A DNA stretch of 64,000 bases, from NCBI RefSeq assembly GCF_902459735.1, contig NZ_CABPRV010000007.1, forward strand, positions 1 to 64,000, written 5' to 3'. Under the pieces are notes generated by a model. That model saw only the letters and a list, made by a program, of their open reading frames with translations. It was not told the origin of the DNA and did no database searches. A program made the translations under genes and the position numbers. Position 1 is the stretch's first letter. Every line of letters starts with the position of its first letter. Of this stretch, positions 1 to 10,835 are shown piece after piece. Source of the DNA: Pandoraea capi. Its GTDB lineage: Bacteria > Pseudomonadota > Gammaproteobacteria > Burkholderiales > Burkholderiaceae.

Positions 1-96
1 ACATCGAGCAACCGCGGACGCTCCTGCCGCTTTCCAGGAGTTGGTTTAACGGGACTTTGCTAGAAGCCCATTGGCCCTATTGAAGGGGGCAGGTCA
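1..96 (-). mobile_element. Putative terminal segment of an insertion sequence (IS3-type end), truncated by the window edge
   Basis: Read on the minus strand, sequence from position 96 begins TGACCTGCCCCC, the kind of TG-initiated, C-rich terminus seen in some IS3-family elements. Its first three bases form the stop codon that ends the ATPase fragment at 94-258 right after an otherwise normal OLD-type N-terminus, which is what an insertion would produce. No transposase reading frame can be judged because the rest lies outside the window. The IS assignment rests on remembered terminal character, not on a comparison. Confidence 0.4.
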
Positions 97-258
97 GATC
101 TTCACTGTGTCGTTGTTGAAGAATATTTCAAGCGCCTCAAGGATCGAAGATTTTCCGATGTCGTTCTTGCCGACAAGCGTCGTTAGGTCGGATATCGGTA
201 CAATCATTTCCTCGCGGTAACAACGAAAGTTCTTGATCGCAAGGGAAATCAGCTTCAT
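94..258 (-). pseudogene. N-terminal fragment of an OLD/RecF-like AAA ATPase, interrupted
   Basis: The frame encodes 54 residues starting MKLISLAIKNFRCYRE, the typical first strand of SMC/OLD-like ABC ATPases, followed by a Walker A motif GKNDIGKSS and SILEALEIFF. It then stops at a TGA formed by the putative IS end. Family members (OLD nucleases, GajA-like ATPases) run to several hundred residues, so only the first nucleotide-binding element remains. It lies 79 bp downstream of the large phosphoribosyltransferase-like gene in the same direction, so it may once have been the last gene of that operon. It is presumably inactive unless the product is completed outside the window. Confidence 0.7.
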
Positions 259-337
259 TTTTTGCCCCGTTGAGTTGATTTTATTCGTTGAATGCGGCTT
301 TTCAGGAAAAAGCGCCCCGCCTTGGGATACTGGCAGG

Positions 338-2548
338 TCACTTCGCAGTTTTATCTACGAGGCCGCAGCCGTACAACGTGTCCCACGACATTCCCTCGCC
401 CCGAAAGAATGCTTCCACGCCCTGCGTCGCAGGGATGGCACCTAATTTCCCCAACGCCCACGCGACAGCGAGCTCGCCGGAAATGATATTTTGTTGAGCG
501 TCTCCCGTATCCAGTGCTGCGGACACCAGAAAGGCTCGTAGGGCGGGGTCAAGTTCTTTGCCCTTTAGAGACCGAATCAAGCCAAGCCATATGAGCCGTT
601 CGGTGTAAAAATCAGACAGTACATTTCTTGCCATGAAGGTAGGGGTGGGGAACAAGTCAGCATTCAGCGGCTTGTCATCTGTCGTTCTTAACTGCTGCAC
701 TGCGCTGGCGCAGGCAAACAACACCTGCATCGCGGTAGCCCCTTGGTGAAGCACCACCGACTCGGCACCAAGCACGGGGGTCTGTGCCGCATGGGGCGCG
801 GAATAGAATGGGGCAGTGGACACCCCGGCAGTCGTCGTTGTCAAATGAGCTATCCGTTCCGACAGCACCCCGTCTAGTTGCCCCTCGCCTTGTGCCAATC
901 GTGTGAGAAGGTGCTGCTCAATGCACCAGGGGCACGTCGGAGCGTCATGCCAATTGGGAAGAGGGACGGTATAGCAATGACTGACAGTGGATTTCCATTT
1001 GTGCCTAGTGGTCATGCCAGTGACGAACTTCCGATAGTCGGCGTCAGACGACGGCGTGGCCAGCACGGTCCAATATTGGATGTGTGAGAGTTTCGGGGCG
1101 CGCTGGGATCGCTTCTCTCTTAGAAAACGATTGATAGACTTGAGCCGATCACCGGTAATCAATACGTCATCCAGAATGAGTGCGCAATTCGCGTCGTGAA
1201 GATTGTCATCAACGGGGCCCGAGCCGCTCGCGATGACATGAGAATCCAGAACGACTAGTGGTCGCCCAACGGCGTCCGCTATCAGTTTTCCGAGCCGCCT
1301 TGCTGTTGCATGATCGGGGCACACAATGACGTCAGGTTGCGGTTCAAATTTCCGTGCGCTAGCCGTTAACTCCGCTTGAAAATCGGAGATATCAAGCAGC
1401 GAACTAACATCAATGTAATACGCGTGGTGACGAGCTGTCGCTTCATTGGGATCGTCGTAGTGCACCCGAAGTACGCCGTCGTGATGCCCCCATCTTTGTA
1501 GGAAGGATTTCTGTTGCTCGAAGTACCTTGGGGGCAGCGGAACGACTGTGTTGGACGTTTGTCCGATAAGGTAACTCGACGAATGGACTTTGACGGCGGA
1601 GCTGTTGGATCCGCAAAGTTTGCAATCCGCCTCACTTTCATAGTGTTTGTATTCCGGTAGCCGAACGTTGCAGAGCGAGACTGTCTGCATGAGTTCTTGT
1701 ACCGCGTAAAGTACGATCACGTCTACTGGACCAACTCTTTCCTTTTCGGCCCAGTCTTGTATGAAGTTGGCGAGCCGACCTGTCGACGCAACCCCAATGG
1801 CTACGAATACAGATCCGCACCGCGCGGCAACTCTGCCCAGCAACTCTATCGTTGCTGTGCGTGATTCAACGTCCGACGGATACATCGGGAAAGCCGCTAC
1901 TTCGAGGGGGATCGGGAGAAGCAGTTGAGCTCGAGCCGCAAGGATGAGCATGCTGGGATGATCTACTAGAAGAGCATGAATCCCAGACGTTTCCATCTGT
2001 GCGCGAGTTTTGATTTCCAGTGATAGCCAATACGCAACTTGGTCGACGATCGCAATGTCTGTGAACGCATCCGCAAGCCGGATAAACTGCGTTGCGTGGG
2101 CGCCGGAAGGTAGCGAAAAGTGATAGTTTTCGCTCGCACATATGACGCTTCTCGCCTTCCCTCGATTGAAAATGCTGTTGAGCTCGGCGGTCCGGATAGT
2201 TTCAAGCTCGCTGCCGCTTACGTGCGTGTGTGTTTGCGATCCCGTCACACCGTCCAATACCTGCAGCGGCGCATTTAGAGCTCCGTTGGCAAACCAGTGC
2301 TCAGCAAGGCTGTGGCCGTCAGGCATCAGATACAAATTAATGCCAGGAGCACGGCGGCTCACGGCCTTTAGACATTCTTCAAAATTGGCGGGAGGGGAAT
2401 TCTGTTGGGTGAGGTTGCGCCACAGCGTTGCATGCGTTCGCAAGACAATGCCGCGTGCATCACGAATATTGGCGTCCGAGATTTGAGCAACCGCATGGTC
2501 TAGGTCTCCTGGGGTCTCGACGAGGAAGTCGCTGAATGCGAAGTCCAT
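338..2548 (-). CDS. Large phosphoribosyltransferase-fold protein with Cys-pair knuckles (function unknown)
   Basis: Protein of 736 residues with no full-length family I can name. Residues 458-469 read ILDDVLITGDRL, the PRPP-binding signature of type I phosphoribosyltransferases (hydrophobic strand, two acidic residues, TG loop). The preceding stretch from about 405 (DVIVCPDHATARRLGK) fits the core Rossmann-like strand. An earlier segment around 144-150 (FSLPSGAH) resembles the hood motif of orotate-type enzymes, and 249-260 (VAIGVASTGRLA) could be a second PRTase-like loop, so the protein may contain a split or duplicated PRTase domain. Cysteine pairs at 309/312 (CKLCG) and 539/542 (CPWC) could bind zinc. 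It starts 6 bp after the GHKL ATPase gene, so the two are probably co-translated. Inferred role: signalling or nucleotide chemistry in a defence or stress system. Confidence 0.75.
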   Translation of the reverse strand: MDFAFSDFLVETPGDLDHAVAQISDANIRDARGIVLRTHATLWRNLTQQNSPPANFEECLKAVSRRAPGINLYLMPDGHSLAEHWFANGALNAPLQVLDGVTGSQTHTHVSGSELETIRTAELNSIFNRGKARSVICASENYHFSLPSGAHATQFIRLADAFTDIAIVDQVAYWLSLEIKTRAQMETSGIHALLVDHPSMLILAARAQLLLPIPLEVAAFPMYPSDVESRTATIELLGRVAARCGSVFVAIGVASTGRLANFIQDWAEKERVGPVDVIVLYAVQELMQTVSLCNVRLPEYKHYESEADCKLCGSNSSAVKVHSSSYLIGQTSNTVVPLPPRYFEQQKSFLQRWGHHDGVLRVHYDDPNEATARHHAYYIDVSSLLDISDFQAELTASARKFEPQPDVIVCPDHATARRLGKLIADAVGRPLVVLDSHVIASGSGPVDDNLHDANCALILDDVLITGDRLKSINRFLREKRSQRAPKLSHIQYWTVLATPSSDADYRKFVTGMTTRHKWKSTVSHCYTVPLPNWHDAPTCPWCIEQHLLTRLAQGEGQLDGVLSERIAHLTTTTAGVSTAPFYSAPHAAQTPVLGAESVVLHQGATAMQVLFACASAVQQLRTTDDKPLNADLFPTPTFMARNVLSDFYTERLIWLGLIRSLKGKELDPALRAFLVSAALDTGDAQQNIISGELAVAWALGKLGAIPATQGVEAFFRGEGMSWDTLYGCGLVDKTAK

Positions 2549-2554
2549 ACCTGG

Positions 2555-3697
2555 TCAACCGCGGGGGCGAGAAAAGAGACTAGGTTGATCCCGATCGATC
2601 GCAAACTCAGGGACGAAAATGGAAATGCATGTGCCGAAAACTGTTTCACTGGGTACTTCGTGAATAGACTCCAGATTCAGTCGGGGGTATTTGTCCTCCC
2701 CGAGTGAGAAGTCCTGCTCCGCGACGAGGTTACCCGACGAGATTCTCAGTAGGGCTTGTAGGCTGTGAGCTGCCGAGATGACGCTAGGTAAGCCAAGGCC
2801 TCGCTTGATGACGCCGACGGGTTTTCTGCTCTCACCGGGCAGAAAGGCTCTTGCCAAGCGTTCCACTGCAGATTCTTGCGGAAGCTCTGCTTTTACTGGC
2901 AACGTGCTTTGAATACCGCTCCCTTGATCTGCCACGGAAATACAAAGGACACCGAGGCCGAGGTCTGACTTGTTCGCCTCGAAAATTCGAAGAAGGTACT
3001 CCTTTAAATCTTCCGATAGGTGGCGTGAAGAGAGTTCTGCACTTTGAAGAACTATTTTTTCAAGTATGAGGGCTCGCGTGCTTCTCGATTTACGCACAGA
3101 GCCTTGCGGGAGGCCGTGCTCCAAACTGTTACGGAGTGCTTCGTAAACGAACGCGACAATGCCGGACTCCTCAGAGGATCCGAGCGCGCGACGAAATCCC
3201 AACGACTCAACTTCGGAATTCAGCAGGACAGAGAACGCCGAGGGAGACGGGAAAATATCGGCCGATGTAGCATTTCTCGTGGAGAGTGCTGGTGCAATTT
3301 GAAAAACCGGGTCGGGGAAGACCACCGCACGGCTCGTTCCTTTGCCAAAAACGCCTTGACTTGATTTGTACATCCCCCCAAGAAGCGGCTTTAGTGTGGG
3401 CGATGCTAAGCCGTTACTAAACTGGATCTGGGACACCAATCGCGATAGCGCGAATCCGAACGGTGATGCGAGCGGTGTTCCTTCAAGCTCCTCGATGCCT
3501 TTAGGCTCGTCGAAGTCGCATACGAGGATCGGCGCGTCTCGGCCAATCCGGATCGACGCGAGTAATGAGAGCGCCAACGCTTGTGCGCCAGGTTCAAATG
3601 CGGATCTGCGGGCCAAGTTGATGGTGTTGCACGCAGCCAGTCGCCAAGATAGAACATCTGCAATGGACGTTCTATCTTGGATTCGGACGAATGTCAT
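2555..3697 (-). CDS. GHKL-type (HATPase_c) ATP-binding protein
   Basis: Protein of 380 residues carrying the Bergerat ATP-binding motifs in order: N box YEALRNSLEHG at 185-195, G1 box VADQGSGI at 255-262, G2 box RGLGLPSV at 299-306 and a closing strand GTCISIFVP at 355-363. There is no receiver, no His-phosphotransfer domain and no membrane segment, so it is not a standard sensor kinase; it is closer to stand-alone GHKL proteins such as anti-sigma or MORC/Hsp90-like conflict-system ATPases. The first 180 residues match nothing I recognise and may be a sensor. The start ATG overlaps the stop of the small upstream ORF (ATGA), and the large PRTase-fold gene follows after 6 bp. Confidence 0.8.
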   Translation of the reverse strand: MTFVRIQDRTSIADVLSWRLAACNTINLARRSAFEPGAQALALSLLASIRIGRDAPILVCDFDEPKGIEELEGTPLASPFGFALSRLVSQIQFSNGLASPTLKPLLGGMYKSSQGVFGKGTSRAVVFPDPVFQIAPALSTRNATSADIFPSPSAFSVLLNSEVESLGFRRALGSSEESGIVAFVYEALRNSLEHGLPQGSVRKSRSTRALILEKIVLQSAELSSRHLSEDLKEYLLRIFEANKSDLGLGVLCISVADQGSGIQSTLPVKAELPQESAVERLARAFLPGESRKPVGVIKRGLGLPSVISAAHSLQALLRISSGNLVAEQDFSLGEDKYPRLNLESIHEVPSETVFGTCISIFVPEFAIDRDQPSLFSRPRG

Positions 3698-3900
3698 ATG
3701 CGATATCCCGAGATGTGGCGGCCGATCTCAAGTGCCGGAACTTTCTGCGCGGTATAAGTGAAAATTCCCGCGCTCCCAGTGAGATAGAGACATTCATCAT
3801 GCCATATAGTGAGCGCATCTGGAACTTTCATGAACCAATTCGCGTTTGCGTTTTTGTTGATATCCTTGAATTCCTGTTGGTCGATCAAGGCATCTTTCAC
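3694..3900 (-). CDS. Small ORF translationally coupled to the GHKL ATPase gene (unknown)
   Basis: A 68-codon frame opens with GTG directly after an in-frame stop and ends in a 4-bp ATGA overlap with the GHKL gene, a hallmark of translational coupling. An AAGGA stretch lies just upstream of the GTG. The product (starting MKDALIDQQEFKD, with WHDECLYLTG in the middle) has no recognised domain; it could be a small partner or sensor of the ATPase. Codon use is AT-rich like the neighbours. The alternative is a chance frame with translation beginning directly at the GHKL ATG. Confidence 0.5.
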   Translation of the reverse strand: MKDALIDQQEFKDINKNANANWFMKVPDALTIWHDECLYLTGSAGIFTYTAQKVPALEIGRHISGYRI

Positions 3901-4086
3901 TCAATCCTTGATAAAGCCGGGGATGGGCTGGTGAGATGATTTAAACAGGCACGCCCACATCGCGCGGAGCGATGGCGCGGGCCTTTAGCTTCATACTGCT
4001 ACGGAGCGCAACTAAAATTTGGCCGACGGACGCCGATAATAGTGTTCCGGGAATAGCTGTCGAGCGACTGTCACACCCGAGTCGAA

Positions 4087-5076
4087 ATGCGAATATACAT
4101 GATCGGCATCAACGCTTACCCAAAAATTGCGAAGACTACGCTTTTTGTGTTTTCTGTAGCTTTTGTTCTATCCGTTGCGTACCTCTTCGCAGCAGAAAAT
4201 CTTGGTTTTCAGCATGAAGCGCTTCGACGAATCGCTGGCTTTGTTTGCGCAGTACTGTTACTCCCCGCGTTTGTGACTGTTCGATATGTCACGAGCGTGG
4301 TTGACTACGCCAACAATGAGTTGCAGATGACACATGACCCGACACTCGCTATGCGACTCTCCTCGGTGCTCGATCAATTACCCCACCCGGTGAGTATCGG
4401 TGTCTACCATTCGGAAGAGATCAACGCTTTTGCTATTTCTTCGATTTTCGGCAATCGGTCTGTGATTGGTTTCTCGTCGGCATTACTGTCGAAGGCTAGT
4501 CATGTGCAACTGTTAGCAATTGGGGCGCATGAAGTGGCTCATATTAGGAGCGGCGACTCGAAGAGCAAAGCATTTGTTCTTGCATTTAATTGTTTTCTTC
4601 GGGTCTACCCATTTCTCCTTGCAACGATGGCCAAGCAGGTATTTAAGAAGGTGTTGCCTTGGATGCTCGGCTCGGCAGTCCTGTTGTTGCTATTGGGTAT
4701 CTATTGGGGGGACGTGAGGCACTCTATCGAGAGCGTGGGGAATGGTCTATTGCCGTTCGCGAAGGTTGCTGCCGCTGCTGTTCTCGTCATCATTGGTTCG
4801 GCCGGATTGGGGAGGCTTCTCGAATGGGGGTTTTCTGCTTACAGTCGTGAACGGGAGTTCGCTGCGGATGTCGGTGCAGCATATATGACCGGGCCGCAGG
4901 CAATGTTATCTGCTCTGGACCTACTTGGTATGGGACAGATTTGCTCGCGGAGTGCCATAAGCATTTTTGACTCACATCCGCCGATAGAAGAGAGAAAGCG
5001 AAGAATTCGGAAAATCGCTATCGGCTTGGGCGTTGATTCGGACGATTCAGCGGTGGCGGATATCGACATCGCGTGA
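4087..5076 (+). CDS. M48-family (HtpX-like) membrane zinc metalloprotease
   Basis: The 329-residue protein has two N-terminal hydrophobic segments (about 14-35 and 46-65), the zinc-binding HEVAH at 148-152, two further membrane segments (about 191-207 and 223-241), and the third ligand in REREFAADVGA (Glu257). This order is that of HtpX/M48B proteases, which cleave misfolded membrane proteins at the cytoplasmic face. The gene is divergent from the GHKL/PRTase operon and shares its lower GC, suggesting it came with the island. ATGs at codons 1 and 5 are both possible starts; no clear Shine-Dalgarno decides. Whether it belongs functionally to the neighbouring cassette is open. Confidence 0.85.
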   Translation: MRIYMIGINAYPKIAKTTLFVFSVAFVLSVAYLFAAENLGFQHEALRRIAGFVCAVLLLPAFVTVRYVTSVVDYANNELQMTHDPTLAMRLSSVLDQLPHPVSIGVYHSEEINAFAISSIFGNRSVIGFSSALLSKASHVQLLAIGAHEVAHIRSGDSKSKAFVLAFNCFLRVYPFLLATMAKQVFKKVLPWMLGSAVLLLLLGIYWGDVRHSIESVGNGLLPFAKVAAAAVLVIIGSAGLGRLLEWGFSAYSREREFAADVGAAYMTGPQAMLSALDLLGMGQICSRSAISIFDSHPPIEERKRRIRKIAIGLGVDSDDSAVADIDIA

Positions 5077-5668
5077 CGTGGTTGCGCACGATTGAGTGAT
5101 GCGTGGTGGACGCGTTGCTCGTAGAACCTGTCTACGGTTTCTCGTTGAGGGGACGGCCCCTCAGCCGACGGCTACACGGCGGACCAATGCTGAAGTCAGT
5201 TGAGCCTCGGTCTCGCCGTTGCACGGCAAGCGCTGGGCTTCCGCATTGGATAGCCCTTGCTAATTTGTAGTCAACAAAGAGCATCCCAAGCGTCCACTAT
5301 GGCTGCAAGTGGCTCTTCGATCGAAGTCGTTAGCACAACCCCCAGGCTGCCGACGTGTAGCAAGGGCCGTTCGATTCGGCGAGATGCTGCAGTGCCATGC
5401 AACAAGCGGTTTGCCGCGTTGCAGCATGAAAATGTTCGCCGAATCCCGTTACGGAGTTCATTGTTTCGTGACGGAGTTCATTGTTTTGCATCACCTCTGA
5501 CCCCAATCAGCACCCGATCAGCACCTCTGCGTGCCGAAACGGCACGAAGCGGCATTTTCCTCCGCCTACACTCCGCTTCCTGAGACTGGCAGACGGTCCG
5601 GCGTGCGCACGCGCGCTTCCGGGCGTCGACATATCGATTTTCAACGCCAGCGATCCAGAGGAGCAGGC
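5077..5668. other. 592-bp gene-free stretch at the edge of the acquired island
   Basis: No convincing gene is visible. The stretch contains a perfect hairpin GAGGGG/CCCCTC at 5147-5162 after the M48 gene (no T-run), a loosely inverted pair of attcggcga...atgctgca sequences around 5377-5445, the 20-bp direct repeats at 5431-5486, and a perfect GTGCCG-aaa-CGGCAC inverted repeat at 5531-5545, about 125 bp upstream of the transporter start, that could be an operator. Confidence 0.5.
5431..5486 (+). repeat. Tandem 20-bp repeats resembling an IS21-type terminus
   Basis: acggagttcattgttt occurs at 5451-5466 and again at 5471-5486 with a 20-bp period, preceded by tgttcgccgaatcccgtt. Multiple short direct repeats next to a TG-starting terminus are typical of IS21-family ends, where the transposase binds. 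No istA/istB gene is present, so this would be a solo end or relic. The repeat is seen directly; the IS identity is inference. Confidence 0.45.
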
Positions 5669-6988
5669 ATGACCGGTAACACCAAACCCCATAACCCGTG
5701 GCGCGAAATCTGCGCGGCGAGTATCGGCAACGCACTTGAGTTCTACGACCTGCTGATCTATGGCTATTTCGCCATCGTGATCGGCCAGTTGTTCTTCCCC
5801 TCGCACGACGCGACCACCTCGCTGCTGCTCTCCGTGGGCACGTTCGGGATCTCGTTCGTCACGCGCCCGCTGGGCTCGATCATTCTCGGCAGCTACGCCG
5901 ACCGCGCTGGCCGCAAGGCGTCGCTCACGGTGTCCATCGGCCTGATGATGGTCGGTACCGCCATGATCGCGTTCGCGCCGACCTACGAGCAGATCGGCAT
6001 CCTTTCGCCGCTCATGATCATCGTCGCGCGCATGCTGCAAGGCTTCTCGACGGGCGGTGAGTTCGGCGCCGCCACGGCATTCATGGTCGAGCACGCCGAC
6101 GCCAAGCGTCGCGGTTTCTTCGCGAGCTGGCAGATGTCCACGCAAGGTCTCGCGACGGTGCTCGCCGCCGGTGTCTCCGCGCTGCTGAGCCTGCTGCTCA
6201 CCGCTGATCAACTGAGCGCATGGGGCTGGCGTATTGCCTTCGCCGTGGGCCTGCTCATCGGACCGGTCGGCCTCTACATTCGCCGCAACATCGACGAGAC
6301 CGCCGACTTCAAGAAGCTCGGCGAGAAGCAACGCGAGAAGTCGCCGCTGCGCGAAGTCTTCGGCCGCGACCGCGCCAACATGCTGCTCGGCGCCGGTGTG
6401 GTTGCCGCAGCCACCGCGTTCAACTACGTGCACAAGCTGTACATGCCGACGTATGCCGTCAAGCAACTGCATATCCCGGCGACGTCGTCGTTCATCGGCG
6501 CCGTCGTGACCGGCGTGATGCTGATGATTGCCGCGCCCGTCGTGGGCCACATGTCGGATCGCTTCGGCCGTATTCGCGTGATGCTCTGGGCGCTCATCGC
6601 CGTGGGCGCGACGACGTACCCGCTGTTCGTCCTGCTCAACCGCTACCCGACGTTCCAGACGCTGCTCCTCGTGCAGGCGCTGGTCGGTCTGCTCATCGCC
6701 GTGAGTCTGGCGCCGCTGCCTGCGCTGCTCGCCGACATCTTCCCGACAAGCACACGCGGGACCGGACTGGCGCTGTCGTACAACTTCTCGGTGACGCTGT
6801 TCGGCGGCTTCGCCCCGCTGATCGTGACCTGGCTCATCGACGCCACACATAACAAGCTCGCCCCGAGTTTCTATGTGATGACGACGGCCGTGCTCAGTAT
6901 CGCTGCCGTTACCGCACTCGGCCGTCGCGTGCGAGCCGGCAAGATTGTGGGTGTCGCGCACGGGTCGCCGCGCGCCACGAAGGCCTGA
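5669..6988 (+). CDS. MFS transporter, metabolite:H+ symporter (MHS) family
   Basis: The 439-residue protein opens MTGNTKPHNPWREICAASIG and shows the MHS hallmark GNALEFYDLLIYG in the first helix, RPLGSIILGSYADRAGRK between helices 2 and 3 (MFS motif A), and QGFSTGGEFGAA in helix 4. MHS proteins import organic acids such as citrate, alpha-ketoglutarate or shikimate by proton symport; the substrate cannot be read here. ATG 5669 is chosen because GAGGAG sits just upstream; the frame stays open further 5' but that part is not MFS-like. The M14-family deacylase gene follows after 124 bp, so the pair may import and hydrolyse an N-acylated or amide-linked acid. Confidence 0.9.
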   Translation: MTGNTKPHNPWREICAASIGNALEFYDLLIYGYFAIVIGQLFFPSHDATTSLLLSVGTFGISFVTRPLGSIILGSYADRAGRKASLTVSIGLMMVGTAMIAFAPTYEQIGILSPLMIIVARMLQGFSTGGEFGAATAFMVEHADAKRRGFFASWQMSTQGLATVLAAGVSALLSLLLTADQLSAWGWRIAFAVGLLIGPVGLYIRRNIDETADFKKLGEKQREKSPLREVFGRDRANMLLGAGVVAAATAFNYVHKLYMPTYAVKQLHIPATSSFIGAVVTGVMLMIAAPVVGHMSDRFGRIRVMLWALIAVGATTYPLFVLLNRYPTFQTLLLVQALVGLLIAVSLAPLPALLADIFPTSTRGTGLALSYNFSVTLFGGFAPLIVTWLIDATHNKLAPSFYVMTTAVLSIAAVTALGRRVRAGKIVGVAHGSPRATKA

Positions 6989-7112
6989 AGCGTGCCTGAC
7001 GCGCATTAGCACCCACACCCGATGCACTGATTTCAGCCGCAACGACGACGTCCGCCTCTCCCCTTGCGCGACGTCGTCACCTTTTTTGTGGCATCCCTGC
7101 GGAGCACTATCC

Positions 7113-8093
7113 ATGACCACGCTCGAAGCGATTCGCGCCGCCTTGCCGGCGTACCCCATCGAAGTCTCGTTCCCGGACATTACCCGTTGGCGCGAGGGCA
7201 ATACCGGCATCGACTATCTGCACACGTTCGATAGCGGCAAGCCCGGCAAGCACGTGATGATTCTCGCGCTCACCCATGGCAACGAAGTCAGCGGCGCGAT
7301 TGCCGTCGATTCGCTGCTGGCGTCGGGCCTGCGTCCCGTTACGGGACGCCTGTCGCTCGGTTTCGGCAATGTTGGCGCCTACGAGCAATTCAGCGCCGAG
7401 AACGCCGACGCCACGCGCTTTCTCGACGAAGACATGAACCGGGTCTGGACGGCGTCGACGCTCGACGGCGAGCGTCAAAGCCGTGAGCTGACGCGCGCAC
7501 GCGCCATGCGTCCTTTCATCGATACGGTCGATCTGCTGCTCGACATTCATTCGATGCACGAAGCCTCGGCGCCGCTGATGATGACCGGCCCGCTGGAGAA
7601 GGCGATTGCGCTGGCCGCCGAGCTTGGCACGCCCGAGCACGTGATCATCGACAAGGGCCACGCCAACGGCACGCGTATGCGCGACTACGGCGGCTTCGGC
7701 AATCCGGCCAGCCCGAAGAACGCACTGCTCATCGAAACGGGCCAGCACTTCGCCAGGAGCGCACGCGATGTGGCGCTCGACAGCGCTGCGCGCTTCCTGC
7801 TGCATGCCGGTGTGGTCGCGCAGGCGGACGTCGCGCAGTTCCTGACGCAAACGACCGGACCGCAGAAGTTTGTCGAGATCACGCAGCCGGTTGTGGCGCG
7901 TTCGATGGATTTCCGTTTCTCGCAACCGTTCACGGGACTCGAAGTGATCGAGAAGGCCGGGACCGAAATCGCCCGCGACGGCGATGAAGTCATCGTCACG
8001 CCGTATGACAACTGCGTGATCGTGCAGCCGTCGATGCGTCATCTCGGCGTGAATGTGACGATGATGCGTCTGGGACGTTTGCTCGATCGCTGA
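7113..8093 (+). CDS. M14-family zinc deacylase (succinylglutamate desuccinylase/aspartoacylase-like)
   Basis: The 326-residue protein has HGNE at 55-58 (His55 and Glu58 as zinc ligands) and the third ligand in LLLDIHSMHE (His146), the arrangement of the AstE/AspA branch of carboxypeptidase-A-fold enzymes. These hydrolyse N-acyl amino acids in the cytoplasm. No ast-operon genes are nearby, so it is unlikely to be AstE itself. It follows the MHS transporter gene in the same direction, and a strong terminator lies 48 bp past its stop, consistent with a two-gene transcription unit. Confidence 0.85.
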   Translation: MTTLEAIRAALPAYPIEVSFPDITRWREGNTGIDYLHTFDSGKPGKHVMILALTHGNEVSGAIAVDSLLASGLRPVTGRLSLGFGNVGAYEQFSAENADATRFLDEDMNRVWTASTLDGERQSRELTRARAMRPFIDTVDLLLDIHSMHEASAPLMMTGPLEKAIALAAELGTPEHVIIDKGHANGTRMRDYGGFGNPASPKNALLIETGQHFARSARDVALDSAARFLLHAGVVAQADVAQFLTQTTGPQKFVEITQPVVARSMDFRFSQPFTGLEVIEKAGTEIARDGDEVIVTPYDNCVIVQPSMRHLGVNVTMMRLGRLLDR

Positions 8094-8140
8094 GGCGTCT
8101 TGCGGGCGCGGGATGGCGTCGGGATGCCTGAGATGTCGCG

Positions 8141-8171
8141 TGGGCCGGTATTGCACCGGCCCATTTTTTTT
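8141..8171 (+). terminator. Rho-independent terminator after the transporter/deacylase unit
   Basis: Perfect 9-bp stem TGGGCCGGT/ACCGGCCCA with a 5-base loop, followed by eight T residues at 8164-8171. Confidence 0.9.
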
Positions 8172-8249
8172 CGTCCGCGTTGGCCTCTGCGCATTGCGAA
8201 TGCTGACGAGCGTCGACGTTGTGGCTTCCAGGGGACGTACGCCGTGGCG

Positions 8250-9698
8250 TCAGAATGTCCCGACCAATGAGCCGACGACGATGACGGCGACGAGCGCGAT
8301 CAATGCGCTCACGATGCTTGTCATGACGATATCCAGATAGCTATCACGATGCGTGCTGCCGCACACCGCGAGCAGCGTCACCACGGCACCGTTATGCGGA
8401 AGACTGTCGAGTGTGCCGGAAGCGATGACCGCCACACGGTGCATCAGCGCCGGATCGATGCCATGCTGTGCGGCGAGGCTGACGTACGCCGGGCCGAGCG
8501 CGTCGAGGGCGATCGTCAGGCCGCCCGACGCGGAACCCGTGATCGCCGCGAGCAGGTTCGCGGACAGGGCGAGCGAGACGAGCGGACCGCCCTCGATGGA
8601 CAACACCCAGTCGCGCACGAGTTCGAAACCCGGCAGTGCGGCAATGACACCGCCGTAGCCGACGAGGCTCGCCGTGCACATGATCGGCAGCACGGAGGCA
8701 TTGGCGCCGGCGTCCATCGTCTTGCGCAGTGCGGGCAGACGTCGCCATTGCAGTATCACCAGCACGACGATGGCGCTGGCCAGTGCCACGCATACGCCCC
8801 AGACACCCGCCACGCTCTGCAACGTAATGCGCCCCCATCTCGGCTCGGCGAGGAAGCTGGCGTCGAGCCGGGGGAAGACGATCACGTTCATTACGAAGTT
8901 CGCGCCGATCACCACGATCAGCGGCAACGCCGCGGTGAGGATGCCCGGCAAGGCGTCGCTGCGGTGTCCCTGCTCGATTTCGGCCGGATCGAACTCGCGC
9001 GCCACGCTGGCACGCTCGCGCACCACGGTCGGATCGGCGGCTTTGTCCCAGACCTCCGTCTGCGCGTAGCCGTGGCCGGCGCGACGCGCTTGCGCTTCAC
9101 GCCACGTGAGCCACCGCAGGCCCACGCCGAGCATGATCGCGGACGCCATCAGCCCCAGTCCCGGCGCCGCGAACGGCGTGGTGCCGAAGAAGGGCATGGG
9201 AATCGCGTTCTGGATGGCAGGCGTGCCGGGCATCGCCGACATGGTGAAGGTCGATGTGCCCAGCGCGATCGCGGCGGGCATCAGCCGCACCGGAATGTTC
9301 GCCTCGCGAAAGAGGGCGTGTGCCATGGGCGCGAGTACGAAGAACGCCACGAACAGGCTCACGCCGCCGTAGGTGACCAGCGCGCCACCGAGTACCACCG
9401 CGAACATCGCGCGACGTGCACCGAGTTTGTCCGTGAGGAACGCGGCGATGGCCCGTACCGCCCCGCTGTCTTCCATCAGCTTGCCGAAGAGCGCGCCGAG
9501 CAGGAACAACGGGAAGAATTGCGCGACGAAGCGCGCCGCGTTCTGCATGAACGTTTGCGTCCAGTGCGCGAGAATCGGCTCGCCGGAGAGTGCGGCCGCG
9601 AGCATGGCGGCCGCAGGGGCGAGCAGCAAGACGCTCCATCCGCGATAGGCCAGCCAGACGAGTAGCGCCAGGCCGATCAGAATGCCGGCAAGCTCCAT
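8250..9698 (-). CDS. GntP-family permease (gluconate/organic acid:H+ symporter type)
   Basis: The 482-residue, highly hydrophobic protein has about a dozen membrane segments and GntP-family features: FFPLFLLGALFGKLMEDSG in the N-terminal third, TYGGVSLFVAFFVLAPMA, MPGTPAIQNAIP, and a C-terminal SGTLDSLPHNGAV motif. GntP members import gluconate, fructuronate or short hydroxy acids; the substrate is not evident. Its ATG directly abuts the stop of the patatin gene (0-bp gap), so it is almost certainly co-transcribed with it. Confidence 0.9.
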   Translation of the reverse strand: MELAGILIGLALLVWLAYRGWSVLLLAPAAAMLAAALSGEPILAHWTQTFMQNAARFVAQFFPLFLLGALFGKLMEDSGAVRAIAAFLTDKLGARRAMFAVVLGGALVTYGGVSLFVAFFVLAPMAHALFREANIPVRLMPAAIALGTSTFTMSAMPGTPAIQNAIPMPFFGTTPFAAPGLGLMASAIMLGVGLRWLTWREAQARRAGHGYAQTEVWDKAADPTVVRERASVAREFDPAEIEQGHRSDALPGILTAALPLIVVIGANFVMNVIVFPRLDASFLAEPRWGRITLQSVAGVWGVCVALASAIVVLVILQWRRLPALRKTMDAGANASVLPIMCTASLVGYGGVIAALPGFELVRDWVLSIEGGPLVSLALSANLLAAITGSASGGLTIALDALGPAYVSLAAQHGIDPALMHRVAVIASGTLDSLPHNGAVVTLLAVCGSTHRDSYLDIVMTSIVSALIALVAVIVVGSLVGTF

Positions 9699-10835
9699 TC
9701 AGAGGGCCTCCTGGAACGGATCGAGGTCCAGCGACGACCGGCGGCCGAGATCGGCGCTGTGCTCGCGCAGGAAGGTATCGGCGCAGCGGCGTCCCTCGTC
9801 GCGCAACATCACGAGGAAATCCCATTCGGCCGAGAGCTTCGACGAGTAGCCGAGCGCCGTCATCATGCTGCTGGCAATCCGGTGCATACGCATTTGCGCC
9901 CAGCGCTTGCCCTCGTCGCTCCCCGCATCCACGACCTTACGCAACACCGCAATCATGCGCAGTTCCTTGAGCAGCGTGGCGTTGAACGAGACCTCGTTCA
10001 CGCGGTTCAGGATCTCGCGCGCGGAGCGAGGCACTTCGTGACGCTCGACCGGATTGACCTGCACGAGGATCGTGTCGCACGACACCGTTTCGCGCACCAG
10101 CGGCGTGATCGACGGATTGCCCGCGTAGCCGCCGTCCCAGTAGGGTTCCCCGTCGATTTCGACGGCGCGATAGAGCATGGGCAGGCAGGCCGAGGCGAGC
10201 AGCACGTCCGGGGTGATCTCGGCGTTGCGGAAGACACGGCCGCGTCCGGTGCGCACGTTGGTGGCGGTGATGAAGAGTTGGATGGGGTTCGTCTGACCGG
10301 CGCGGGAGATGCCGTCGAAATCGATGTGATCGGCCAGCAGACGACGCAGCGGATTGAATTCGAGCGGCGACAGATCGTATGGCGAGACGACGCGCGCGGC
10401 CAGATCGAAGAACATGAAGAACGGCGAGTTGTCGAGCGACCAGCGGCCTAGCACGATGTCGAGCGGTGTGCGGCGCAACGGACTGAACCGGCCGGCGTGG
10501 GCGACGTCGCGCCAGAACTGTTCGAGGGCGCCGCGTGCCGCGTCGGGACCGCCCCGGGCGTAGCCGGTGGCCAGCACGGCGGCGTTCATGGCGCCTGCGG
10601 ACGTGCCCGAGATGCCTTCGATGCGAAATGGCGCGTTGGCCGTGTCGTGCGAAATTGCTTCGAGCAGACGGTCGAGCCCCCCCCAGGTGAACGCGCCGTG
10701 CGCGCCACCGCCCTGAAGGGCGAGATCGATCGGGAGTGCGGTGCGGCCAGTGGCGCGCGCACCGGGCGGCGTGCGGGTCGCGTTAGCGGTGCGGGTGGCG
10801 TGCTGCGCCCGCTTGGGGGATTGGGAGCGTGGCAT
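9699..10835 (-). CDS. Patatin-like phospholipase (RssA-type serine acyl hydrolase)
   Basis: The 378-residue protein carries the oxyanion loop QGGGAHGAF at 41-49, the nucleophile elbow GTSAG with Ser79, and the catalytic DGG (Asp234) in YWDGGYAGN. This is the complete Ser-Asp dyad of patatins, which deacylate phospholipids. The start at 10835 gives a short basic N-terminus (about 30 residues) ahead of the fold; the frame is open further upstream but that sequence looks non-coding. The GntP permease follows with no gap; in several proteobacteria patatin and GntP genes are paired, suggesting a link between lipid breakdown and 3-hydroxy-acid uptake, which is inference here. Confidence 0.88.
   Translation of the reverse strand: MPRSQSPKRAQHATRTANATRTPPGARATGRTALPIDLALQGGGAHGAFTWGGLDRLLEAISHDTANAPFRIEGISGTSAGAMNAAVLATGYARGGPDAARGALEQFWRDVAHAGRFSPLRRTPLDIVLGRWSLDNSPFFMFFDLAARVVSPYDLSPLEFNPLRRLLADHIDFDGISRAGQTNPIQLFITATNVRTGRGRVFRNAEITPDVLLASACLPMLYRAVEIDGEPYWDGGYAGNPSITPLVRETVSCDTILVQVNPVERHEVPRSAREILNRVNEVSFNATLLKELRMIAVLRKVVDAGSDEGKRWAQMRMHRIASSMMTALGYSSKLSAEWDFLVMLRDEGRRCADTFLREHSADLGRRSSLDLDPFQEAL

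Follow-up and report, generated by a model that had tools for sequence, protein, structure and literature searches.

What do a GHKL (Bergerat-fold) ATPase and a protein with phosphoribosyltransferase (PRTase)-like domains do together when their genes lie side by side on one strand, and has such a pair been described before? The question is raised by a 64-kb window of Pandoraea capi DNA (NZ_CABPRV010000007.1; the window is the whole stretch that was analysed), where gene A for the ATPase and gene B for the PRTase-like protein occupy a low-GC stretch at the start, which is also the edge of the contig. The initial annotation had read the two, together with a small open reading frame (ORF), as a possible undescribed three-gene defence or stress system in which ATP binding controls a PRTase-like nucleotide reaction. 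Our comparisons show that the window pair is a divergent branch of PDC-M65, an uncharacterised candidate of PADLOC-DB 2.0.0 (models PDLC04764 and PDLC04765). A role of the pair in defence is probable, and we tentatively favour a reading, plausible though somewhat short of probable, in which an ATP-switched A controls a nucleotide-handling B during defence.

Relation to the candidate system PDC-M65

B of the window matched the PDC-M65B model with E=7.1e-15 (52.3 bits, best stretch 294-583), and A matched PDC-M65A weakly (E=0.0046, 13.9 bits); for comparison, the pair at locus L049, a member of what we call the main branch, reached 84 bits for A and 210 bits for B. Across the family, PDC-M65A recovered 22 of the 23 A sequences at E<=0.01 and PDC-M65B 21 of the 22 B sequences. 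The two misses, A of locus L051 and B of plasmid pHG1, both belong to the small branch that contains the window, in which the PDC-M65B match was 1.7e-6 for L051, 1.1e-7 for L077 and absent at E<=1 for pHG1, and the PDC-M65A match was 9.2e-6 for pHG1, 3.5e-5 for L077 and absent for L051. By detectable homology these are the same two proteins as those of PDC-M65, and A precedes B in the loci that were recovered. Because both already stand in PADLOC-DB as candidates PDC-M65A and PDC-M65B, the system cannot be called undescribed, and the profile search for a known named system, which had been proposed as a check, ended in a candidate that covers both proteins with marginal window matches. The PDC models reportedly stem from Payne et al. 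(bioRxiv, 2024). The claim of an undescribed chemistry stands, as no published chemistry of the pair was found; titles, openings of abstracts and passages of the literature searched contained no description of it. PDC-labelled systems are called not experimentally validated in passages of papers using those labels, and the PDC-M matches in passages of two papers were to PDC-M30. PDC-M65 proteins have little Pfam coverage, and no published mechanism was found for them.

Homologues were gathered by profile search of genomes and tblastn of plasmids. In all 26 loci with a substantial B, 11 of them on plasmids, A lay upstream of B on the same strand, and the survey of co-occurrence thus supports the treatment of A and B as one unit. 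In 22 of the 26 loci the gap between the genes measured -40 to +12 bp, values that depend on starts taken from annotation or chosen by us, and the outliers were L028 (-88 bp), L026 (-91 bp), L057 (+405 bp) and L059 (+90 bp). The tight spacing that had been noted in the window was confirmed, with an ATGA overlap between the small ORF and A and then a 6-bp gap between A and B. Identities of A and of B were correlated over 25 pairs (Spearman 0.75), and none of 2000 permutations gave a value as high. Moreover, both frames of the window are real beyond chance because both have long homologues on pHG1 of Cupriavidus necator H16, with 34.7% identity over 98% of A and 27.8% over 95% of B. Locus L050, where B is split over two frames, is included in the counts of gene order and of A and left out of those of B motifs, and five loci with fragments of B only (L031, L032 from the congener G133, L033, L034 and L036) are outside the counts. 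At L057 a 139-aa ORF stands between A and B, and B is without its N-terminus. In this Spirosoma locus B appears as a short ORF and a 637-aa ORF (7597-8013 and 8010-9923), which may reflect a natural division of its N-terminal part.

At E<=0.001, with the own genome included and some matches being fragments or weak, a match was found in 10 of 200 family, 3 of 369 class, 10 of 398 phylum and 5 of 330 order genomes. The only new member of the window's branch among the 330 order genomes was G1090. In the order of G909, one of 78 genomes had a match, G909 itself, and these 78 genomes contained no other member of the branch. In tblastn against 72,556 plasmid records, the window query matched two, both of them pHG1, the L048 query 10 and the L055 query 11, and three tblastn queries found no homologue of the pair in 50,697 phage records. 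Pattern scans of genome contigs and viral contigs, which miss divergent members, gave no match. Weak matches in G755, G850 and G991 and on a Caballeronia plasmid (11% coverage) were left out.

The ATP site of A and the PRTase-like domains of B

The N, G1 and G2 boxes are all present in A of the window and place it among the GHKL proteins. N190, D257, G259, G261, G300 and G302 are found in 26 of 26 A proteins and E186 in 25 of them. Complete Bergerat motifs without another kinase domain had been reported for A, and this holds; no Pfam family was found in A at E<=1, including any phospho-acceptor or receiver domain of a histidine kinase. Pfam HATPase_c matched 3 of 23 A proteins, A of the window not among them. 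Compared with PDB, whole A gave a proteasome subunit at the top (0.13), a likeness that we dismiss as chance, and then CheA at 0.17 and above, and its N-terminal region of about 170 residues gave chance-level matches only.

The description of B as a 736-residue protein with a loop of the phosphoribosyl pyrophosphate (PRPP) type and two cysteine pairs (C309/C312 and C539/C542) was likewise confirmed. Domain 2 of B likely has a PRTase fold. In the window, Pfam Pribosyltran (PF00156) matched it with E=0.008, below the family cut-off, and the same family matched 1 of 22 B proteins. A profile of 22 sequences of domain 2 found the orotate PRTase 4fym (E=0.0057), PRPP synthetases (0.086) and HGPRT-type enzymes (about 1) in PDB, and six of its eight matches were PRTases or PRPP synthetases, the other two being unrelated. 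Two adjacent acidic loop residues, by which type I PRTases are recognised, are present in B of the window as D460-D461. Domain 1 is possibly a degenerate domain of the orotate PRTase (OPRT) kind. It carries GVASTG where the PRPP loop would sit, its relatives mostly having ISASxSG, and this loop ends in a phosphate-loop-like [ST]G in 20 of 25 B proteins. The C-terminal region of B gave chance-level matches only against PDB. At about residues 600-670, the motif PENFxRFNDGxIQAxLLRAAxPSEL is strongly conserved in the main branch and eroded in the window's branch.

Trees of 25 pairs set the window, pHG1 (L010), L051 and L077 apart as a group of four against the 21 remaining pairs, with a support of 100/100 for both A and B, and the same split was obtained without L077-L079. 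The tree tool warned that long branches meet at L051, and the trees have no outside root, which leaves gain and loss undirected. Residues 460-461 of B are DD in all four members of the branch and in none of the 21 others (SS, AA, SA, AP, DP etc.), and H413 and C539/C542 (CPWC) follow the same division, 4/4 versus 0/21. The Fisher value, 8e-5, overstates independence because there is one evolutionary split. In contrast, the ATP-site residues of A are not divided by branch, and the 21 main-branch relatives keep the ATP-site glycines. Since the PRPP acid pair is missing from 21 of the 25 intact B proteins, a catalytic PRTase step is not a family-wide mechanism, and the proposal that ATP binding controls a PRTase reaction does not survive as a general one. 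PRTase chemistry may at best be specific to the window's branch, which alone keeps a candidate active site. The joint retention of DD, H413 and CPWC over very long branches suggests selection for loop function, and the constancy of the ATP site while the B loop changes suggests that A is the constant engine of the system. The four-member branch offers a natural contrast, with the same kind of partner ATPase beside B proteins with and without PRPP-holding residues, and pHG1 of C. necator H16 is a workable model in which the question of enzyme or sensor becomes directly testable.

Features at the start of the window, with their coordinates and the observation behind each
Feature	Position	Strand	Observation
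Gene B, PRTase-like, 736 aa, PDC-M65B-like	338..2548	-	PDC-M65B model match
B domain 1, residues 117-300, possible degenerate OPRT-like	1649..2200	-	one PDB match, E=0.09
B domain 2, residues 386-538, likely PRTase fold	935..1393	-	Pfam Pribosyltran E=0.008; PDB profile matches
PRPP-type loop ALILDDVLITGDR, residues 456-468, D460-D461	1145..1183	-	DD in 4/25 B proteins
C309xxC312 pair	1613..1624	-	in 15/25 B proteins
C539PWC542	923..934	-	window's branch only, 4/25 B proteins
Gene A, GHKL (Bergerat-fold) ATPase, 380 aa, PDC-M65A-like	2555..3697	-	conserved ATP-site residues
N-box of A, residues 185-195	3113..3145	-	E186/N190
G1 box of A, residues 255-262	2912..2935	-	DxGxG, D257-x-G259-x-G261
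G2 box of A, residues 299-306	2780..2803	-	GxG, G300-x-G302
68-aa ORF, GTG start	3694..3900	-	overlaps A start by ATGA
96-bp repeat end, probably insertion sequence (inferred)	1..96	.	copies at contig ends C7, C10, C19
Truncated OLD-like AAA_15 ATPase gene, first 54 codons	97..258	-	Pfam AAA_15 2.6e-21

Neighbouring genes, proposed action and rival explanations

Proteins of at least 120 aa within 6.5 kb of the pair were compared with PADLOC families at E<=1e-10. The 82 neighbours in 11 genome loci matched 220 families and the 109 neighbours in 11 plasmid loci matched 92, against nine for 115 control proteins in ten stretches; these counts are of families, not of proteins, and several models can match one protein. 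Among the matches listed were Zorya, AbiE, Wadjet, type I restriction-modification (RM), pAgo and others for the genome loci, and Qat, ThsB-like TIR and E1-E2 for the plasmid loci, and the nine families of the control include dGTPase (two proteins), mad2, mad3, DolB and RT-Protease models. Control stretches came from nine pair-bearing genomes and G000, none of them on plasmids and that of G909 with only 4,981 bases; G106 and G040, which had no such stretch, and one long protein of 116 (L066:6011-10684) were left out. The survey did not include L077-L079, and the locus of origin of a match was reported only for ZorB (L027). By annotation, five of the 11 plasmid loci have a defence or conflict gene near the pair, namely Avs1, multiubiquitin/ThiF, ThiF with nucleases, TIR with multiubiquitin, and Qat, and type I RM genes border L035 and L047 as read by eye from protein starts. 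As to the proposed check for defence-island enrichment, many pair loci are defence-rich; six of the 11 plasmid loci show no annotated defence neighbour. Near the PDC-M65 pair of L079, a radical-SAM gene (2007-2915, plus strand) with CxxxCxxC resembles prokaryotic viperin by eye.

Directly upstream of A, thyX, the gene for an FAD-dependent thymidylate synthase, is found on three rhizobial plasmids (L053 5559-6497, L058 5258-6196 and L060 4613-5551), with a Pfam Thy1 E of about 1e-56 to 1e-55 in the two of the three that were tested, and dgt is also present at L060. This position of thyX hints at nucleotide metabolism, and thyX, A and B may travel together as a unit. The linkage may be one event because the three rhizobial pairs are closely related.

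In the reading that we favour, A would bind ATP, dimerise like other GHKL proteins and keep B in check or waiting. An infection cue would then alter the nucleotide state of A, and B, which has a likely PRTase-fold domain and a second, possible one, would engage a phosphoribosyl or nucleotide ligand. In the window's branch, domain 2 would probably still use PRPP or a related ribose phosphate and act on nucleotides, and growth or phage replication would be stopped by nucleotide depletion or by a nucleotide-like signal; in the main branch, the same fold would most likely bind nucleotide phosphate only.

Several observations weigh against this reading. Sequence support for the PRTase fold is weak, with a best E of 0.0057; a three-sequence profile of domain 2 from the window's branch found no match in PDB, and domain 1 had a single PDB match, an orotate PRTase at E=0.09. 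The two domains gave E 0.028 at 1.8% probability in hhalign, so that an internal duplication is not claimed, and branch-only profiles gave non-significant values of 0.49 and 0.65. The domain-2 loop is atypical, with I-T-G in the window, Y-G-S in pHG1 and V-S-G in L077, and the full PROSITE PRTase pattern for the PRPP loop matched none of the 25 B proteins. No A match was present near B fragments in the stretches fetched for the five fragment-only loci. A later profile search of the class found a match in one of 258 genomes, the own genome alone, and the branch is rare. In addition, the defence label of PDC-M65 derives from a guilt-by-association database, no published functional test of the pair was found, and the six plasmid loci without an annotated defence neighbour in the fetched stretch are L052, L054, L055, L056, L058 and L059.

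The changes in the B loop bear on whether B is an enzyme at all. B could be a non-enzymatic nucleotide sensor in all branches, PyrR being an analogue in principle, with A as the working ATPase that is told of pool shifts during infection. Such a sensor fits the contrast between A, which retains the GHKL residues in 26 of 26 proteins, and B, of which 21 of 25 proteins lack the PRPP acid pair; it also fits the [ST]G end of the domain-1 loop in 20 of 25, but DD, H413 and CPWC have been kept jointly over very long branches in four members, and we consider a sensor throughout the family rather doubtful. A division of roles, with a true PRPP-using immune enzyme under a GHKL switch in the window's branch and an inactive nucleotide sensor in the main branch, seems to us unlikely; such an enzyme may place ribose phosphate onto a nucleotide or macromolecule, make a nucleotide-like signal or destroy PRPP. 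If this division were true, an immune enzyme and a sensor relative would stand in one family, and in rhizobia ThyX would be a linked partner acting on nucleotide pools.

Other explanations leave the immune role aside. The presence of thyX upstream on three rhizobial plasmids, dgt beside one of them, and the position of several loci among metabolic genes would suit an accessory operon of metabolism or stress, where the supply of pyrimidine or thymidylate is adjusted by the PRTase-like protein. The patchy distribution seen here (10/200 family and 3/369 class genomes, own included) and the unrelated defence systems close by in many loci speak against such an operon, and we regard it as improbable. 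The tight coupling of A and B and the 11 of 26 loci on plasmids are also what a toxin-antitoxin-like pair would give, in which B would inhibit growth and A would hold it back in an ATP-dependent way; such a pair would stabilise plasmids or islands and not act against phages. This is in our view quite improbable, as the first gene encodes a conserved ATPase that exceeds the usual antitoxin in size, and many neighbours match defence families, although no search was aimed at maintenance genes.

A defence pair of an ATP-switched A and a nucleotide-handling B, the reading that we prefer, would share parts with several systems, which are compared here as they appear in passages of the papers cited. 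The DprA-PRTase defence system of P2-like prophages likewise has a PRTase within a two-protein anti-phage system (PMC9122126), but the partner is DprA-like and not a GHKL ATPase. Among other PADLOC families, B matched no DprA-PRTase or retron model, PDC-M65B being its only match at E<=1. In type III retrons, a PRTase-like domain is the presumed effector (PMC12548924); the domain is shared, but the annotation of the 11 plasmid loci, the only loci searched in this respect, shows no reverse transcriptase. VcSduA is a Shedu protein with an N-terminal GHKL domain, for which GHKL control of the nuclease has been hypothesised (PMC12137116). Control of an effector by GHKL is proposed there too, but the effector is a fused DUF4263 nuclease, and here it would be a separate PRTase-like protein. 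Ter systems likewise include nucleobase PRTases in the context of biological conflict, with the proposed role of producing a signal derived from nucleotides (PMC7824862); the partners there are TerB/C/D/F and TelA, none of which is annotated in the 11 plasmid loci, the only loci searched for them. PMC13092281 refers in a figure legend to a validated PRTase-bearing system, which may overlap with PDC-M65.

The island in Pandoraea capi and its other genes

The GC content is 53.0% at 97-5076 and 64.0% at 5501-64000, in agreement with the AT-rich block of the initial annotation. A query with 3800-9000 of the window matched the locus in 27 of the 31 other genomes of the genus, the match always starting at 5442-5530, and none of the matches listed lay left of these positions. 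The DNA left of them differed from the window in all eight congeners fetched; when one of these, L090, was taken as reference, the other seven matched only in the shared right flank, and the left flank of L090 gave only two short weak matches against the genome of the window. The region at about 5442-5530 is a variable chromosomal junction, with a right side common to the congeners and a left side that is not. B of the window as query against 299 family genomes found its own genome and one weak match in another genus (G078), so that B of the window was not seen in the congeners sampled there. The A-B pair thus lies on an island that was not observed in the congeners compared. The congener G133 has a 190-aa fragment of B (L032 6531-7103), found with the PDC-M65B model and without detectable A, possibly a decayed copy of the main branch.

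The block had also been described as flanked by probable insertion sequence (IS) ends, which is acceptable for the left side and not for the right, where no IS end was seen. We infer the left-hand IS because bases 1-96 have copies at three further contig ends within the own genome (the other end of C7, C10 and C19; one copy covers 20-96); no transposase was identified at this repeat. The AAA_15 gene downstream of B starts at 258 and is interrupted near base 96 by the repeat end, and this fourth minus-strand gene is truncated because the window begins at the contig edge. It is probably a separate island gene.

Three neighbours were considered and rejected as members of the system, namely the 68-aa ORF, the AAA_15 piece and an M48 protease gene (4087-5076, plus strand), as none had a blastp match at E<=0.5 in the 25 other pair loci. 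For the 68-aa ORF, the open frames of these loci contained no counterpart (0/25), and the three-gene system thus reduces to the two genes A and B. A comparison of this ORF and the protease with 12 loci, among which seven have a substantial pair, yielded no match above chance level. The 68-aa ORF may serve as an aid to translation of A. The protease, an HtpX-like M48 membrane protein, lies on the same low-GC island and is divergent from the A-B pair.

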